The position numbers were made by a program, and so were the translations under genes. A DNA stretch of 28,068 nt from a virus: IMG/VR virus record IMGVR_UViG_3300025759_000525, positions 1 to 28,068 of that record; one strand, written 5' to 3'. Each line of letters starts with the position of its first letter. Position 1 is the first letter of the stretch. The notes below the pieces were generated by a model, which was not told where the DNA came from, did no database searches, and worked only from the letters and a program-made list of their open reading frames with translations. Below, piece by piece: positions 2,609-14,466 of the stretch.

Positions 2609-3672
2609 TGAAATCACATAATAAAAGGTGGCGAGAGAAAGGTGCTAACCCAAGATACCGTTTAAATACAGACGAAGCACAAATTATAAATGATTATAGA
2701 AGGTTAAAACAAGAAGCACAAGCAGAAGGTTTAAATCCTAATGACATTCACAGCGGGTGGATTAAAAACAAAAAAGCCAGTTTATACTTTAAAAATCCTA
2801 ATTTTAAGAAAAACGATTTAAAGGAGTTTAAGAAACAATTATTAAACGACTTAAAAGAATATTCACCAAACTTTGAAAAGGTTGTTAAACCTAAAGTAAA
2901 AGACGGACATTGCCTTTTAATATCACCAGCAGATATACACATTGGTAAATTATGTAAATCTTTTGTAAGTGGAGAAGAATACAATAAACAAATAGCAGTA
3001 CAAAGAACATTAGAAGCTATTGACGGAATATTACAAAAAAGCAACGGTTTTAATATAGATAAATTAGTTCTATGTATTGGTAATGATGTAATGCACATTG
3101 ACACACCAAGTGGTGGTAAAACTACAAGAGGAACGGTTCAGGATGTAGACGGTATGTTTTTTGAACATTTCCATATAGCAAAAAGATTATATATAAATAT
3201 TATTGAAACATTAGTTAGTTTCTATCCTGATTTACACGTTGTTTATAATAGTAGTAATCACGATTACTTAACTGGGTTTTGTTTAGCAGATACAATTTCA
3301 ACTTATTTTAGAAATAGTAAAAACATTACTTTTGACATTAGTTTAAAACATAGAAAGTATTATACTTATTATGATAACTTAATTGGAAGTACACACGGAG
3401 ATGGTGCTAAATGGGATTTACTACCATTATTAATGGCTGATGAGTGTTCAGAATGGAGCAGAACTAAATACAGGTATATGTTTACACATCACGTACATCA
3501 TAAAATAACTAAAGATTTAGTTGGTTGTACTTTAAGCAGTTTTCGCAGCCCATCACCAGCAGATAGTTGGCATCATAAAATGGGATATACTTCTTCAAAT
3601 AATCAAGGTATTGAAGGAGTAATATTCTCTAAACGTAATGGCCAAGTAGCCAGAATCACACATTTATTTTAG
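2608..3672 (+). CDS. Calcineurin-like metallophosphoesterase
   Basis: 354 residues. The metallophosphatase signature appears in order: D109-I-H111 (PADIHIGK), G158-N-D160 (CIGNDVMH), N217-H-D219 (SSNHDY), H263-G-D265 (STHGDG) and H294-H-V-H-H298. These are the dimetal-site residues of calcineurin/Mre11-type phosphoesterases. The N-terminal 95 residues are basic and helical and may bind nucleic acid. Substrate cannot be read from the sequence; DNA or a cyclic nucleotide are both possible. The gene stands alone between the lysis genes and the early region, with a similar inverted repeat on each side. Confidence 0.8.
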   Translation: MKSHNKRWREKGANPRYRLNTDEAQIINDYRRLKQEAQAEGLNPNDIHSGWIKNKKASLYFKNPNFKKNDLKEFKKQLLNDLKEYSPNFEKVVKPKVKDGHCLLISPADIHIGKLCKSFVSGEEYNKQIAVQRTLEAIDGILQKSNGFNIDKLVLCIGNDVMHIDTPSGGKTTRGTVQDVDGMFFEHFHIAKRLYINIIETLVSFYPDLHVVYNSSNHDYLTGFCLADTISTYFRNSKNITFDISLKHRKYYTYYDNLIGSTHGDGAKWDLLPLLMADECSEWSRTKYRYMFTHHVHHKITKDLVGCTLSSFRSPSPADSWHHKMGYTSSNNQGIEGVIFSKRNGQVARITHLF

Positions 3673-6708: not shown

Positions 6709-7023
6709 ATGAAAGAATCAAAAGTCTTGAAAGCATTGGGTTTGACTTCGTCAGATATACAAAATTTATTGATGAGCGGAGTGTCAATGCCAGAAATAGC
6801 AAAGAGGTATAAAATTAGTTATATCTCTTTAGTTCAGGCTTATAAAATTCAAAAGAAAAACTTCAAGTATATTGATTTTTTACAACCTAAAGAAGAAGTA
6901 AAGGACATTAAAAACGTGTCCTTTGCTTTTGACAAACTATATACAGAAGAATCACTTAACGAAGATGAGCTATTAGCATATTATAAATACGAACAAAAAA
7001 ACAAAGCATATTATGAAACATAA
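6709..7023 (+). CDS. Putative helix-turn-helix protein
   Basis: 104 residues. Residues 10-48 (ALGLTSSDIQNLLMSG, then SMPEIAKRYKISYISLVQAY) have the spacing of a helix-turn-helix, with a Met-Pro-Glu-Ile-Ala-Lys-Arg-Tyr recognition-type start. The C-terminal half is acidic and rich in Glu/Tyr. It may be a DNA-binding regulator or replication-initiation accessory. It overlaps the next gene by 11 bases. No specific family is recognised. Confidence 0.5.
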   Translation: MKESKVLKALGLTSSDIQNLLMSGVSMPEIAKRYKISYISLVQAYKIQKKNFKYIDFLQPKEEVKDIKNVSFAFDKLYTEESLNEDELLAYYKYEQKNKAYYET

Positions 7024-9333: not shown

Positions 9334-9680
9334 GTTTAAACGCAAATCAAAAAGGAAAAAGATTCGAGCTAAAAATTGCAAAAGATTTAGCAAAGAAGTT
9401 TGACACCAATATAAGAAGAACACCCAACAGTGGAGGCTTAAGCATTAAAGGTGATATAATGACAACGTCTGGCATATTAAGCGAGTACAGTTGGGAGTGT
9501 AAGAACCAAGAAAAGCTAAACATCTGGAAAGCATTAGAGCAAAGCAAAGGAGATGCAATAGGCACATTAAAAACTCCTGTTGTTGTATTTACTAAAAACT
9601 TTGAAGATGATTACATTGCTTTAAAGTATGATGACTTTGTAAATATATTACTTGAGTTAGATGAATACCGAAGTAGATAA
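9330..9680 (+). CDS. Holliday-junction-resolvase-like PD-(D/E)XK nuclease
   Basis: 116 residues. It begins SLNANQKGKRFELKIAKDLA (Glu13 on the first helix), then RRTPNSGGLSIKGDIM (Asp42), SWECKNQEKLNIWKALEQ (Glu56-x-Lys58, Gln71) and VVVFTKN. The E...D...E-x-K...Q order and the GRxFE-like start are those of Hjc-type and phage resolvase-like nucleases. The likely role is cutting branched DNA before packaging, which fits the position near the end of the replication block. It overlaps the sigma-like gene by 20 bases. Confidence 0.75.
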   Translation: MSLNANQKGKRFELKIAKDLAKKFDTNIRRTPNSGGLSIKGDIMTTSGILSEYSWECKNQEKLNIWKALEQSKGDAIGTLKTPVVVFTKNFEDDYIALKYDDFVNILLELDEYRSR

Positions 9681-10170
9681 CATACTACAAATATTAGTAA
9701 GAGACGAGGCTATTTGGTTGAACATGGCTGAGGAGATTAGCAGCAACAGTAAAGTCCCAGCTAAAGATTTATTACATGACTTTTATATTGCTTTACATAG
9801 TAAAATTTATAACGGTAAAGTAAAAATTAACGATATTCTATATAACGATTCTTTAAATAAAGCGTTTATATATAAGATGATGCACAATATTTTTATTGAT
9901 ACAATAAGAGTTGACAAAGACATACTAATTGAAAAAGATTTAAAAAACATAGTAGAAGCTGACAATGTTAGTTATGTAGATATAGAAAAAATGGTTGACG
10001 ATATAGTTAACGAGTTTTATTGGTTTGATAGAAAGCTATTTAATTTATATAGAAAGAAATTCCACAGCATTAGAAAACTATCAGCAGCCACTAATATATC
10101 TCATGTTGTAGTATGGAGAACAATAAACAATTGTATTAAAGAAATAAAAAAAAAGATTAATGAAGACTGA
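9661..10170 (+). CDS. Sigma-factor-like protein (sigma-70 regions 2 and 4 pattern)
   Basis: 169 residues. The N-terminal half has DLLHDFYIALHSKI and KAFIYKMMHNIFIDTIR, recalling sigma region 2. The C-terminal part (122-165) has WFDRKLFNLYRKKFHSIRKL followed by SAATNISHVVVWRTINNCIK, a region-4-like helix-turn-helix ending in EIKKKI. Phages of flavobacteria often carry such diverged ECF-type proteins; this one lacks obvious anti-sigma contacts. The expected role is to redirect host RNA polymerase to late promoters. The gene immediately precedes the packaging block and itself contains one copy of the bipartite motif at 9839-9877. Confidence 0.65.
   Translation: MNTEVDNILQILVRDEAIWLNMAEEISSNSKVPAKDLLHDFYIALHSKIYNGKVKINDILYNDSLNKAFIYKMMHNIFIDTIRVDKDILIEKDLKNIVEADNVSYVDIEKMVDDIVNEFYWFDRKLFNLYRKKFHSIRKLSAATNISHVVVWRTINNCIKEIKKKINED
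9839..9877 (+). promoter_or_regulatory. Bipartite motif, copy 1 (inside the sigma-like gene)
   Basis: TATAAC at 9841-9846, 13 bases, then AAGCGTTTATATATA. The whole stretch matches the intergenic copy at 13758-13795 at 32 of about 37 positions, including two exact blocks of 13 and 13 bases. It lies within codons 60-73 of the sigma-like gene, upstream of the packaging genes, so it could be an internal promoter. Alternatively the similarity is coincidental to the coding sequence. Confidence 0.5.
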
Positions 10171-10902: not shown

Positions 10903-11188
10903 TGGTAGGCCAAAAGGCTCAAAGAATAGAAGCACAATTCTAAAAGAAATAGCAGAGCTTAGAACAAAAGGAATTCATCCTGTTACTGGTGAAGAAGTTT
11001 GGATGACTAACGAATATAGAATGGCTATGGCTGTTATAGAAAAGGTTATACAAAAAGGAGATGCACAAGGATTAAACATGGTGTTAGATAGCATTTATGG
11101 AAAACAAAAAGACACTGTTGATTTAAATACTACAGAAGAAGTAAACCATGATTTCAGAAACATCATTTCAAGGATTAAAGCTCAATAA
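10850..11188 (+). CDS. Small terminase subunit candidate
   Basis: 112 residues. The N terminus has FKKGQSGNPNGRPKGSKN, the glycine/arginine-rich signature of DUF5681-type proteins that commonly precede large terminase. A helical segment (TILKEIAELRT, NEYRMAMAVIEKVIQ) follows. The role would be recognition of phage DNA at packaging initiation. The 3' end overlaps the large terminase start by 41 bases, so the two are made together. Confidence 0.75.
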   Translation: MSKEDLIPFKKGQSGNPNGRPKGSKNRSTILKEIAELRTKGIHPVTGEEVWMTNEYRMAMAVIEKVIQKGDAQGLNMVLDSIYGKQKDTVDLNTTEEVNHDFRNIISRIKAQ

Positions 11189-12377
11189 AAAATACTTAGT
11201 ATTAGACGAATCATTTGCAAGGTACTTTATTGTAACTGGTGGTCGTGGTTCTGGTAAATCATTTGCAGTCAACTCTGTACTATTACTACTAACCTATCAA
11301 GCTGGCCATACTATACTATTTACACGATTTACTTTAAGAGCTGCAAGTATTAGTATCATTCCTGAATTTATAGAAAAGTTAGAACTGCTTGGAGTTATAA
11401 ACCAATTCAAAATAACAAAGGATGAAATAATTAATAAAGGCAACGGAAGCAAGATAATATTCAGAGGTATTAAAACCAGCTCAGGAGACCAGACAGCAAA
11501 TCTTAAATCATTACAAGGGATTACTACTTGGGTAATGGATGAAGCAGAAGAATTAAATGACGAAGATATATTTGACAAAATAGATTTATCTGTCCGTAAT
11601 AAAATACAAGAGAATAGAGTAATATTAATATTGAATCCAACAACTAAAGAGCATTTCATTTATAAGCGTTGGTTTGAAGATAGAGGCATTGCTGCTGGTA
11701 GTAATATAACTAAAGAAGATACTACCTATATACACACAACATATTTAGATAACTTAGACAACCTTTCCGAAAGCTATATTAAGCAGATTGAGACAATGAA
11801 GGTTAGAAGGCCAAACAGATACAAGCATACAATTGAAGGTGCTTGGCTGGATAAAGCTGAGGGTGTTATATTTACTGACTGGAGTATAGGAGAGTTTCAG
11901 CAAGTAGGCAAAGTTGTATTTGGCCAAGATTATGGTTTTAGCAATGACCCATCAACATTAGTTAAAACGAGCATTGACAAAGAGAATAAAGTTATCTATA
12001 TACAATTATGTTTCTACCAAACTAAATTAACCACAAGCGAGATACTACAATTAAATAAAAAGTTTGCAGCAGATAATTTAATAGTTGGTGATTCAGCAGA
12101 GCCAAGATTAATAACAGAACTTAGCAGAGATTGTAATGTAGTACCAGCTATTAAAGGTCAAGGTTCAATAACTTTTGGAATTAGTTTATTACAAGATTAT
12201 GATTTAGTAATAACTGAAGATAGTACAGAATTAATAAAAGAGTTAAATAATTATTGTTGGTTAGAAAAGAAAAGCCAAACACCAGTAGATAACTTTAACC
12301 ATGCTATTGATGCTTTACGATATGCAGTTAGCTACCAATTACAAAATCCAAACTTAGGAGAATATCACATATACTAA
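11148..12377 (+). CDS. terL: Terminase large subunit (Terminase_3-like)
   Basis: 409 residues, the normal length. The ATPase domain has Walker A GGRGSGKS (31-38), Walker B TWVMDEAEE (Asp131, Glu132) and the coupling motif ILNPT (161-165). The nuclease domain has FGQDYGFSNDPS (Asp261), IVGDSAEP (Asp315) and NHAIDALRYA (Asp388), the acidic triad of the RNase H-like fold. It powers DNA packaging into the prohead and cuts the concatemer. The start at 11148 is preferred because the ATP-binding domain follows closely, with MISETSFQGLKLNKKYLVLD as the usual leader. Its small-subunit partner lies immediately upstream. Confidence 0.96.
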   Translation: MISETSFQGLKLNKKYLVLDESFARYFIVTGGRGSGKSFAVNSVLLLLTYQAGHTILFTRFTLRAASISIIPEFIEKLELLGVINQFKITKDEIINKGNGSKIIFRGIKTSSGDQTANLKSLQGITTWVMDEAEELNDEDIFDKIDLSVRNKIQENRVILILNPTTKEHFIYKRWFEDRGIAAGSNITKEDTTYIHTTYLDNLDNLSESYIKQIETMKVRRPNRYKHTIEGAWLDKAEGVIFTDWSIGEFQQVGKVVFGQDYGFSNDPSTLVKTSIDKENKVIYIQLCFYQTKLTTSEILQLNKKFAADNLIVGDSAEPRLITELSRDCNVVPAIKGQGSITFGISLLQDYDLVITEDSTELIKELNNYCWLEKKSQTPVDNFNHAIDALRYAVSYQLQNPNLGEYHIY

Positions 12378-12382
12378 ATATT

Positions 12383-13117
12383 ATGAAATTATATAAAGGA
12401 GATTGCTTAGAAGTAATGCAAACAATACAAGACAAAAGTATTGATGCTATTATTACAGACCCTCCTTATGGAACTACAGCTTGTAAGTGGGATAGTGTAA
12501 TAGATTTTGAGTTAATGTGGGAACAACTTAATAGAATTATAAAACCTAACGGTGCTGTTGTTTTATTTGGTTCTGAACCGTTCAGTAGTGCTTTACGAAT
12601 GAGTAATATAAAGAATTATAAGTATGATTGGATATGGGAGAAACCAAAAGGAACAGGTTTTTTAAACGCAAAAAAGCAACCATTAAGATATAGCGAGTTG
12701 ATATCAATATTTTATAGAAAGCAATGTACTTATAACCCACAAAAAACAACAGGGCACAAACCATCTAATAAATCAAGCGCTAAAAGCAAAAAAGAAACTG
12801 ATGTATATGGTAAATTTAACAAGCAAGAAAAAGGAGGGCAAACAGATAGATACCCTAAAAATATAATAAAATTTAACAATGTAAACTCATCTAAAGGAAT
12901 AGTACACCCTACCCAAAAACCCATATCATTAATGGAATATTTAATAAAAACATACACAAATGAAAATGAAACGGTTTTAGATTTTACTATGGGTAGTGGT
13001 TCAACAGGTGTAGCTTGTAAGAATACCAATAGAAACTTCATAGGCATAGAACAAGATGAAAACTATTTTAACATTGCTAAACAAAGAATAAAAGAAACTG
13101 AATTTAAATTGTTTTAA
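12383..13117 (+). CDS. Beta-class DNA methyltransferase (N6_N4_Mtase)
   Basis: 244 residues. The catalytic motif IV DPPYG (26-30) comes before the SAM-binding motif FTMGSGST (201-208), the order of beta-class N6-adenine or N4-cytosine methyltransferases; HPTQKP at 175-180 is typical of the family. IGIEQDENYFNIAKQRI completes the SAM fold. The target sequence cannot be read. No restriction enzyme is nearby, so it is probably an orphan enzyme protecting phage DNA or marking it. It begins five bases after the terminase gene and is the last gene before the long noncoding stretch. Confidence 0.93.
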   Translation: MKLYKGDCLEVMQTIQDKSIDAIITDPPYGTTACKWDSVIDFELMWEQLNRIIKPNGAVVLFGSEPFSSALRMSNIKNYKYDWIWEKPKGTGFLNAKKQPLRYSELISIFYRKQCTYNPQKTTGHKPSNKSSAKSKKETDVYGKFNKQEKGGQTDRYPKNIIKFNNVNSSKGIVHPTQKPISLMEYLIKTYTNENETVLDFTMGSGSTGVACKNTNRNFIGIEQDENYFNIAKQRIKETEFKLF

Positions 13118-13193
13118 TTATAGCCCTGCTTAAGCCACCCTCAAGCATTTAGATAAGATATATAAAGAAAAATAAAAAAAAAGTTTAAAAAAG

Positions 13194-13225
13194 TTTTGTA
13201 GTTTATAAATATATTTATATATTAG
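13194..13225 (+). promoter_or_regulatory. Promoter-like site for the structured RNA
   Basis: TTTTG at 13194-13198, 19 bases, then TATATTAG at 13218-13225. The second box matches 7 of 8 positions of the Bacteroidota TAnnTTTG element, and the spacing is the classic one. It predicts transcription from about 13231, just before the structured region. A weak 5-bp hairpin (TGCTT/AAGCA, 13127-13147) after the methyltransferase gene may end the upstream transcript. Confidence 0.55.
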
Positions 13226-13230
13226 CATTG

Positions 13231-13670
13231 TAATTAAGTTTACAAAAGTTCTTTAAATAATAGGAAATTTGTTTTTTGCGTAAGCAGAAGTTAAATTGCA
13301 AGTATAAAACGCTGAAAGATTGCGTTAATTATTGAGCTGATAATCGAACTAAATATTTAGGTTCATATCTACTGTAAGATGTAGAATGTTCAGATTAAGG
13401 CAATAGGTAATACTTGGACAAGGGAGGGGAAAAAATATAACCTTAAAATCCTGAGTAAAACGAACCCATTTGAAACTGGGGGGGTAGATTGAACTGTAGG
13501 TATACAGATTGTTTCAATACCATGATAGCCTAATTACTGGAATCCTAACTATTTATTTAAAGAATATGTATATGCCCATATCTTAAGACGTTAAGTAAAT
13601 GGGAGCTGACAAGCGTATGAACACAAACAAACAAAAATAAAGAGCCACCGTAAAAAGTGGCTTTTTTTTA
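13231..13670 (+). ncRNA. Candidate large structured noncoding RNA, about 440 nt
   Basis: The 677 bases at 13118-13794 hold no plausible gene but many short perfect helices. Examples: 13277-13286 with a GUAA tetraloop; 13308-13312/13322-13326; 13328-13332/13340-13344; 13346-13364; 13368-13372/13381-13385; 13494-13507. A two-part helix 13390-13393/13451-13454 with 13395-13400/13441-13446 closes a larger domain. A hairpin at 13575-13603 stacks CCCAT/ATGGG on CTTAA-GACG-TTAAG. The loop of 13465-13480 can pair seven bases with 13511-13517, a pseudoknot. A promoter-like site lies just upstream and a terminator ends it. Size and setting recall large ornate phage RNAs such as ROOL and GOLLD, but I cannot match either. 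A degenerate group I intron is an alternative. Confidence 0.7.
13643..13669 (+). terminator. Rho-independent terminator, end of the structured RNA
   Basis: AGCCAC at 13643-13648 pairs with GTGGCT at 13657-13662 around loop CGTAAAAA. The stem extends with A-T pairs, and a run of eight T residues follows (13662-13669). This is a textbook intrinsic terminator on the + strand. Confidence 0.9.
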
Positions 13671-13710
13671 TTATATTTGAAATAAGCAAAAATTAAATTT
13701 GCGTTTTGGT

Positions 13711-13750
13711 AAAATAGGTAGTCGGCAAAAGAGCGTTACCTATTTTTTTT
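13711..13750 (+). terminator. Second terminator-like hairpin in tandem
   Basis: AAAATAGGTA at 13711-13720 is perfectly complementary to TACCTATTTT at 13737-13746; the loop is 16 bases and further T residues follow (13747-13750). Two hairpins within 110 bases would isolate the tail operon from upstream transcription. Confidence 0.7.
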
Positions 13751-13757
13751 ATATTTG

Positions 13758-13795
13758 TATATAACGATTCACTAATTTAAACGTTTATATATAAA
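13758..13795 (+). promoter_or_regulatory. Bipartite motif, copy 2 (before the tail operon)
   Basis: TATAAC at 13760-13765, 13 bases, then AAACGTTTATATATA from 13779, ending at the start codon of the first tail gene. The spacing is identical to copies at 9839 and 23513. A TATATTTG (13750-13757) just upstream is a perfect TAnnTTTG, but no TTTG lies at the expected distance before it. Confidence 0.6.
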
Positions 13796-14466
13796 TGAAA
13801 CTAACTATCAACATACCAGAAACTCTTAATGAAGTTACTTTGAAGCAATACCAAAAGTGGTTAAAGATTGCTGAAGGTAAAGAGCTGGATTCATTCCTAC
13901 AACAGAAGATGATTGAAATCTTTTGTAATATACCACTAAAGAACGTTCTACAAATAAAAGCAAGCGACATTAATAATATTACTGAAGAACTTACAAAGTT
14001 GTTTACTAATACACCTAAGTTTATAGATAGATTCGAAATGAATGGTAAAGAATTTGGATTTATACCTAAACTCGATGACATCAGCTTTGGTGAATATGTT
14101 GACCTTGATACCTACCTTGCTGACTGGGAGTCCATGCACAAAGCAATGGGTGTTTTATTTAGGCCAATAACATTCAAAAAGAAAAAGCAATACTTGATAG
14201 AAGATTACGACAGTGCTGACAAGTATGACATGACAGAAGTCACTTTAGATGTTGCATTTGGTGCGCTTGTTTTTTTTTGGAATTTAAAGAGCGAATTACT
14301 GAAAACTACCCTGAATTATTTAGCAACTCAGGAGGAGGTAGAGCTTCCTCAGCAAATGCGGGATTCGCTGCAAAATGGGGTTGGTATCAATCTATCTACG
14401 GACTTACTAATGGGAACATTCTTAAATACGATAGTATCACAAAATCAAAACTACACACCTGCTTGA
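13795..14466 (+). CDS. Tail-assembly chaperone, zero-frame product (gpG-like)
   Basis: 223 residues. It begins KLTINIPETLNEVTLKQYQK, followed by helical and mixed sequence. Position before the tape measure, plus the overlapping frame at 14277, identifies it as the analogue of lambda gpG, which binds the tape measure during tail assembly. After a slippery T run at codons 160-161 the zero frame continues for 62 residues (WNLKSELLKTTLNYLATQEE...) to the stop at 14466; ribosomes that slip make a fusion instead. The start follows the bipartite motif directly with no leader Shine-Dalgarno. Confidence 0.85.
   Translation: MKLTINIPETLNEVTLKQYQKWLKIAEGKELDSFLQQKMIEIFCNIPLKNVLQIKASDINNITEELTKLFTNTPKFIDRFEMNGKEFGFIPKLDDISFGEYVDLDTYLADWESMHKAMGVLFRPITFKKKKQYLIEDYDSADKYDMTEVTLDVAFGALVFFWNLKSELLKTTLNYLATQEEVELPQQMRDSLQNGVGINLSTDLLMGTFLNTIVSQNQNYTPA
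14271..14277 (+). promoter_or_regulatory. -1 ribosomal frameshift site T_TTT_TTT
   Basis: A run of nine T residues spans 14270-14278. In the zero frame it reads G-TT TTT TTT T-GG, so T_TTT_TTT is a canonical X_XXY_YYZ heptamer. A slip of -1 enters the frame that is open from 14277 to 14528. The -1 frame has no ATG until near its end, so the frameshift is the natural way to express it. Confidence 0.8.

Follow-up and report, generated by a model that had tools for sequence, protein, structure and literature searches.

A predicted structured noncoding RNA of about 440 nt occupies an exchangeable cassette island next to the terminase gene of a marine flavobacterial phage

In the genome of a marine flavobacterial phage, IMG/VR record IMGVR_UViG_3300025759_000525 (28,068 bases, called the window here), the gap between the terminase gene and the gene starting at 13795 is a hypervariable island of exchangeable accessory cassettes, and one of its occasional occupants is a large structured noncoding RNA. 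The prediction that 13230-13669 forms a structured RNA is well supported, and this RNA belongs to a new family that is absent from Rfam and that in kind can be placed with the other large phage RNAs whose function is unknown. Judged only from its context, the RNA most likely serves counter-defence or takeover of the host, and the cassette is probably an accessory (moron-type) unit making a structured, trans-acting noncoding RNA of ~440 nt that is most likely directed at the host.

The genes of the window include those for portal, tape measure, a virion structural protein and terminase, and its closest named relatives are the Nonlabens phages P12024S and P12024L (terminase 52% identical). In P12024L the gene after terminase abuts it without a gap and this phage is therefore without the island. 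The methyltransferase encoded at 12383-13117 is missing from most relatives. The stretch 13118-13794, which the sequence-only reading had described as free of genes, extends from the methyltransferase stop at its 5' side to the ATG of gene 13795-14466 at its 3' side, and it does lack genes, the longest ATG-started plus-strand frame inside the RNA having 13 codons. The 40 bases just before gene 13795 (13755-13794) are 85% identical to 9836-9875, which lie inside the sigma-factor-like gene 9661-10170, and this pair of stretches is also present in relatives.

Table 1. Positions in the window of the island borders, the RNA unit and its proposed structural elements
Feature	Position	Strand	Remarks
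Terminase large subunit	11148-12377	+	Left island border; 52% identical to Nonlabens phage P12024L terminase
DNA methyltransferase	12383-13117	+	phrog_67, E 1.3e-82; optional island occupant
Island linker, palindrome-like TGCTTAAGCCACCCTCAAGCA then TTTAGATAAGATATATAA	13118-13161	+	Single copy in window
Predicted promoter TTTTG-N19-TATATTAG	13194-13225	+	TTTTG 13194-13198, TATATTAG 13218-13225
5' leader hairpin UGUAA/UUACA	13229-13244	+	Every pair kept in six sequences
Structured noncoding RNA, ~440 nt	about 13230-13669	+	Fold, homologues, pair conservation; 5' end (13230) deduced from promoter position
Domain closed by helix P1	13248-13565	+	P1 = 13248-13265 with 13543-13565; 96-97% of cells paired
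Hairpin P2, GNRA tetraloop	13266-13297	+	All pairs kept
Hairpin H6, 13424-13427/13441-13444	13424-13444	+	GAGG/CCUU; GAGA/UCUU in L280; one double-changed pair
Hairpin H8b	13494-13507	+	CUGUA/UACAG; CUACA/UGUAG in four homologues; two double-changed pairs
3' hairpin H9, loop GACG	13575-13604	+	Inner stem 13582-13595
Predicted intrinsic terminator of the RNA	13641-13669	+	GC-rich stem then U run
Second terminator-like hairpin, apical GUAGUCGGCAAAAGAGCGUUAC	13714-13750	+	Right island end, just before gene 13795
Conserved gene, phrog_32199 (function unknown)	13795-14466	+	Right island border

Folding of 13226-13672 (447 nt) gave a minimum free energy of -103.2 kcal/mol, compared with a mean of -83.4 for shuffled sequences (z -3.55), and none of 100 shuffles folded as well. 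The most distant homologue, from locus L280, displayed a fold z of -3.86. The homologous sequences comprised only seven distinct ones, the majority with 84-99% identity to the window, and six distinct sequences made up the alignment for the pair test. For the 68 proposed pairs in ten helices, 98.8% of the cells of this alignment were paired, versus 38-52% when one strand was slid, and with a somewhat different set of 67 pairs the observed pairing was reached by none of 2,000 shuffles. Three pairs of the 68-pair set had changed on both sides, one in H6 and two in H8b, and two more were contributed by H9 when the H9 region of L280 was aligned by hand, which brings the double-compensated pairs to five, spread over three hairpins. 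Taken alone, the count of double-changed pairs in the 68-pair set is not extreme, since 33 of 500 shuffles reach it; most pairs are invariant, and it is mainly L018, L091, L096, and L280 that supply the covariation.

Among the individual elements, the loop of P2 is GUAA, GGAA or GAAA across the homologues, so that its changes stay within the GNRA type, and the inner stem of H9 occurs as CUUAA/UUAAG, CAUAA/UUAUG, and CUUUA/UAAAG, which accounts for its two double-changed pairs. The outer stem of H9, CCCA/UGGG, is absent in L280, and the middle region at about 13335-13400 has no agreed fold. As P1 is nearly invariant, it is weakly tested by variation. From the comparison of homologues it is evident that much of what the sequence-only reading had proposed withstands scrutiny: homologues with compensatory changes argue for a large structured noncoding RNA of ~440 nt and back both the GUAA tetraloop hairpin (13266-13297) and the stacked 3' hairpin (13575-13603) described there. 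The domain-closing helix suggested in that reading (13390-13400 with 13441-13454) fails, however, as its pairing is disrupted in L091, L096, and L280; instead, the hairpin 13424-13427/13441-13444 is kept in all homologues and the real closing helix is formed by 13248-13265 with 13543-13565.

The TTTTG-N19-TATATTAG site upstream of the RNA and the terminator at its end were both located where they had been expected, and both are predictions from sequence. The TATATTAG of the window promoter closely resembles the consensus of the sigma-A box in flavobacteria, TAnnTTTG (PMC9723704), and homologues carry at the -7 position of the promoter TATATTTG, which matches the consensus form. The protein cassettes of the island are preceded by the same promoter type. 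The RNA cassette would be transcribed by the housekeeping RNA polymerase of the host. At the left end of the gap lies the linker, whose GATAAG form is present as a single copy per locus in 83 of the 281 loci; it is also found between tandem cassettes, and a variant form is present in L280. We infer that the linker is likely a homology tract for cassette exchange, which would proceed via the shared linker, promoter and terminator sequences. The GUAGUCGGCAAAAGAGCGUUAC hairpin at the right end, on which the sequence-only reading is silent, is present in one copy in the window and with the same sequence in 45 islands. Its apical part is strongly conserved and its lower stem varies (for example in L073), and it might possibly be a protein-binding or regulatory RNA element.

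Loci were fetched by a related terminase or downstream gene, and the stretch from terminase to the gene corresponding to 13795 measured 44 to 1,546 nt across 91 distinct cases, counting that of the window. The islands contain methyltransferases (in seven of them), orphan ORFs of 36-112 aa, or nothing; some are almost empty and others hold at least one unit composed of linker, promoter, short ORF and terminator. The short ORFs fall into many unrelated groups. Most of the cassette proteins tested belong to no family, single matches concerned DUF7258, a nucleoside triphosphate pyrophosphohydrolase PHROG and PHROGs without a known function, and no anti-defence families were detected among the cassette proteins tested with Pfam and PHROGs. 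The RNA unit itself combines a putative promoter and terminator of its own with patchy presence between conserved genes, as moron cassettes do.

Other islands carry noncoding cassettes as well. In L071 (2984-3317) and L139 (4864-5190), noncoding bodies without clear similarity to the window RNA lie just after terminase, share the promoter of the RNA and begin with the same leader hairpin. The L071 body folds only somewhat better than shuffles (z -2.41) and the L139 body no better than shuffles (z -0.18), and neither of them is claimed as a structured RNA. A short noncoding element with promoter and terminator is common to L082 and L121, and another short noncoding cassette type, also with promoter and terminator, is present in L117 and L124. 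In 29 islands (among them L006 at 3507-3552, L058, and L062), a conserved hairpin GAGGCAGCCGAU..UUAGCGUAAGUCCUC is located just 5' of a terminator and often follows a protein cassette; its stem variants GAGG/CCUC and GAGC/GCUC suggest compensation, and it had no Rfam match in L058. L006 also harbors, at 3557-3590, H9 alone behind a 78-aa protein cassette, which suggests recombination between RNA and protein cassettes close to their 3' ends.

Homologues of the RNA were found in few islands, namely L003, L159, L018 (with L019 and L020), L091, L096, and L280. Its position relative to the linker varies: the window and L003 have the RNA after the linker, and L018, L091, and L096 have it before. Relatives with 97-99% identical terminase are without the RNA and have other cassettes in the same slot, indicating that the RNA is dispensable to the phage backbone. 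The L280 homologue, which was found by a leader-pattern scan, is 72-75% identical in nucleotides; it is situated directly 3' of the terminase gene, and its island ends at the homologue of gene 13795. In this phage the flanking proteins are distant from those of the window, the terminase and the product of gene 13795 each being 25% identical; the terminases closest to that of L280 come from gut phages, Bacteroides phages for example (35-36%). The presence of a 72-75% identical RNA at a syntenic site between flanks that are only 25% identical argues that the RNA moves horizontally, and exchange is the simpler account because under vertical descent the RNA would have had to stay far more conserved than the terminase.

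Five exact-pattern scans of IMG/VR converged on the same few contigs, and the RNA family thus appears small within the reach of exact seeds; distant relatives may escape scans that require exact seed matches. The pattern GATTGTTTCAATACC was too short and its additional loci are due to chance. An exact-seed scan of 84,980 genomes for host copies yielded five hits, all of them chance 19-letter matches without flanking similarity. In the family of Flavobacterium micromati, from which 397 bacterial genomes were searched, the RNA core had no match, and what did match was almost solely the terminator. The lone covariance-model hit of the search for host copies, L289, was discarded since it lies inside an ORF and has many broken pairs. 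Searches of named phages with the window RNA and the L280 RNA as queries returned only short terminator-like or low-complexity matches.

A pattern of optional presence, alternation with other genes and sharing among distant backbones is typical of host-interaction genes, unlike core phage functions. The RNA is optional, alternates with orphan proteins and the methyltransferase, and spans distant backbones, and for these reasons a role in host interaction is proposed. The RNA would act on its own, in trans, and its most likely target would be in the host, where it might inhibit or decoy a defence system or another RNA or protein machine. Its complementarity to the phage's own genome, as would be needed for an antisense role there, was not above that of shuffles. 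Counter-defence is the leading guess, resting on the company of the methyltransferase and on general logic, and among the roles that had been proposed from sequence, antidefence would fit best. A further-reaching version is advanced only tentatively: the transferable site would accept protein or RNA cargo, its RNA cassettes would be counter-defence agents, large folded RNAs that directly block a bacterial immune system, and the noncoding cassettes of L071, L139, L082/L121, and L117/L124 would be distinct RNAs doing the same kind of work.

Known RNA families were searched with Rfam, to which neither the window nor six related loci had a match; relaxed limits yielded nothing beyond scattered low scores. 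The ROOL model (RF03087) found no match at E<=10, a model that was also silent in all 14 control genomes and so was used without a positive control. The GOLLD model (RF02032) found none in the RNA region, and its sole match in the window (6916-6944, 29 bases, 9.7 bits against a cut-off of 150 bits) is meaningless. The group I intron model (RF00028), which does ring in control genomes, likewise remained without a match at E<=10, and no gene is interrupted at the RNA site. Neither the window nor eight related loci had a tRNA gene. With these models unmatched, the earlier suggestion that the RNA resembles ROOL and GOLLD in kind and not in sequence is supported. A ROOL- or GOLLD-like ornate RNA, forming an RNA-only multimer or cage that serves the late phage cycle and is not directed against the host, would agree with the large size, the closing helix, the GNRA loop and the phage location, and the self-complementary ACGU in the 3' hairpin loop region might permit dimer contacts. 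However, besides the missing model matches, the RNA is smaller than ROOL and GOLLD, has no tRNA genes near it and is missing from most close relatives, which makes this explanation unlikely.

Being directly 5' of the structural gene block, the RNA could alternatively act in cis, as a leader or antitermination element for the structural genes from 13795 onwards. Against this, the RNA has its own terminator followed by the second terminator-like hairpin, most phages of the same gene order do without the RNA, and a linker (L018, L091) or another cassette (L096, L280) separates it from the downstream gene, so that control in cis is improbable. A degraded intron, a pseudogene or idle filler would explain why the RNA is absent from most relatives, but it is a very improbable origin for a sequence with compensatory changes, a kept GNRA loop, a maintained promoter and terminator and 72-75% identity across distant phages, in which there is no coding remnant and which the group I intron model does not match. 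Packaging and virion assembly, both among the roles proposed from sequence, are disfavoured, and an RNA working with the adjacent terminase like phi29 pRNA is scarcely credible: the RNA always adjoins the terminase gene, L280 included, but phages with 97-99% identical terminase lack it and carry other cassettes, the L280 terminase beside it is just 25% identical, and an only occasional island occupant is not an essential packaging or virion RNA.

To the earlier reading as a large structured phage RNA, the main addition made here is the setting, a transferable cassette site at which the RNA moves between distantly related phages. Few large structured phage RNAs are known and their functions are open, and the context of this one suggests a testable role. 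If the RNA counters defence, phage counter-defence islands would hold large RNAs that are invisible to protein-based searches, and the island would be an address for finding more of them.

Among known systems, ROOL and GOLLD resemble the window RNA in being large, structured, phage-encoded RNAs of which the function is open. ROOL is often located near tRNA islands and many GOLLD RNAs exceed 800 nt (PMC12286853), whereas the window RNA has no tRNA island nearby and, with about 440 nt, is shorter than the 574 positions of the ROOL model and than many GOLLD RNAs. With the moron and anti-defence islands of phages, the island described here shares self-contained promoter-terminator units that are exchanged at a fixed site and are patchily distributed; it differs from them in that the cassette proteins tested are without a recognised anti-defence family and that the cargo here is an RNA.
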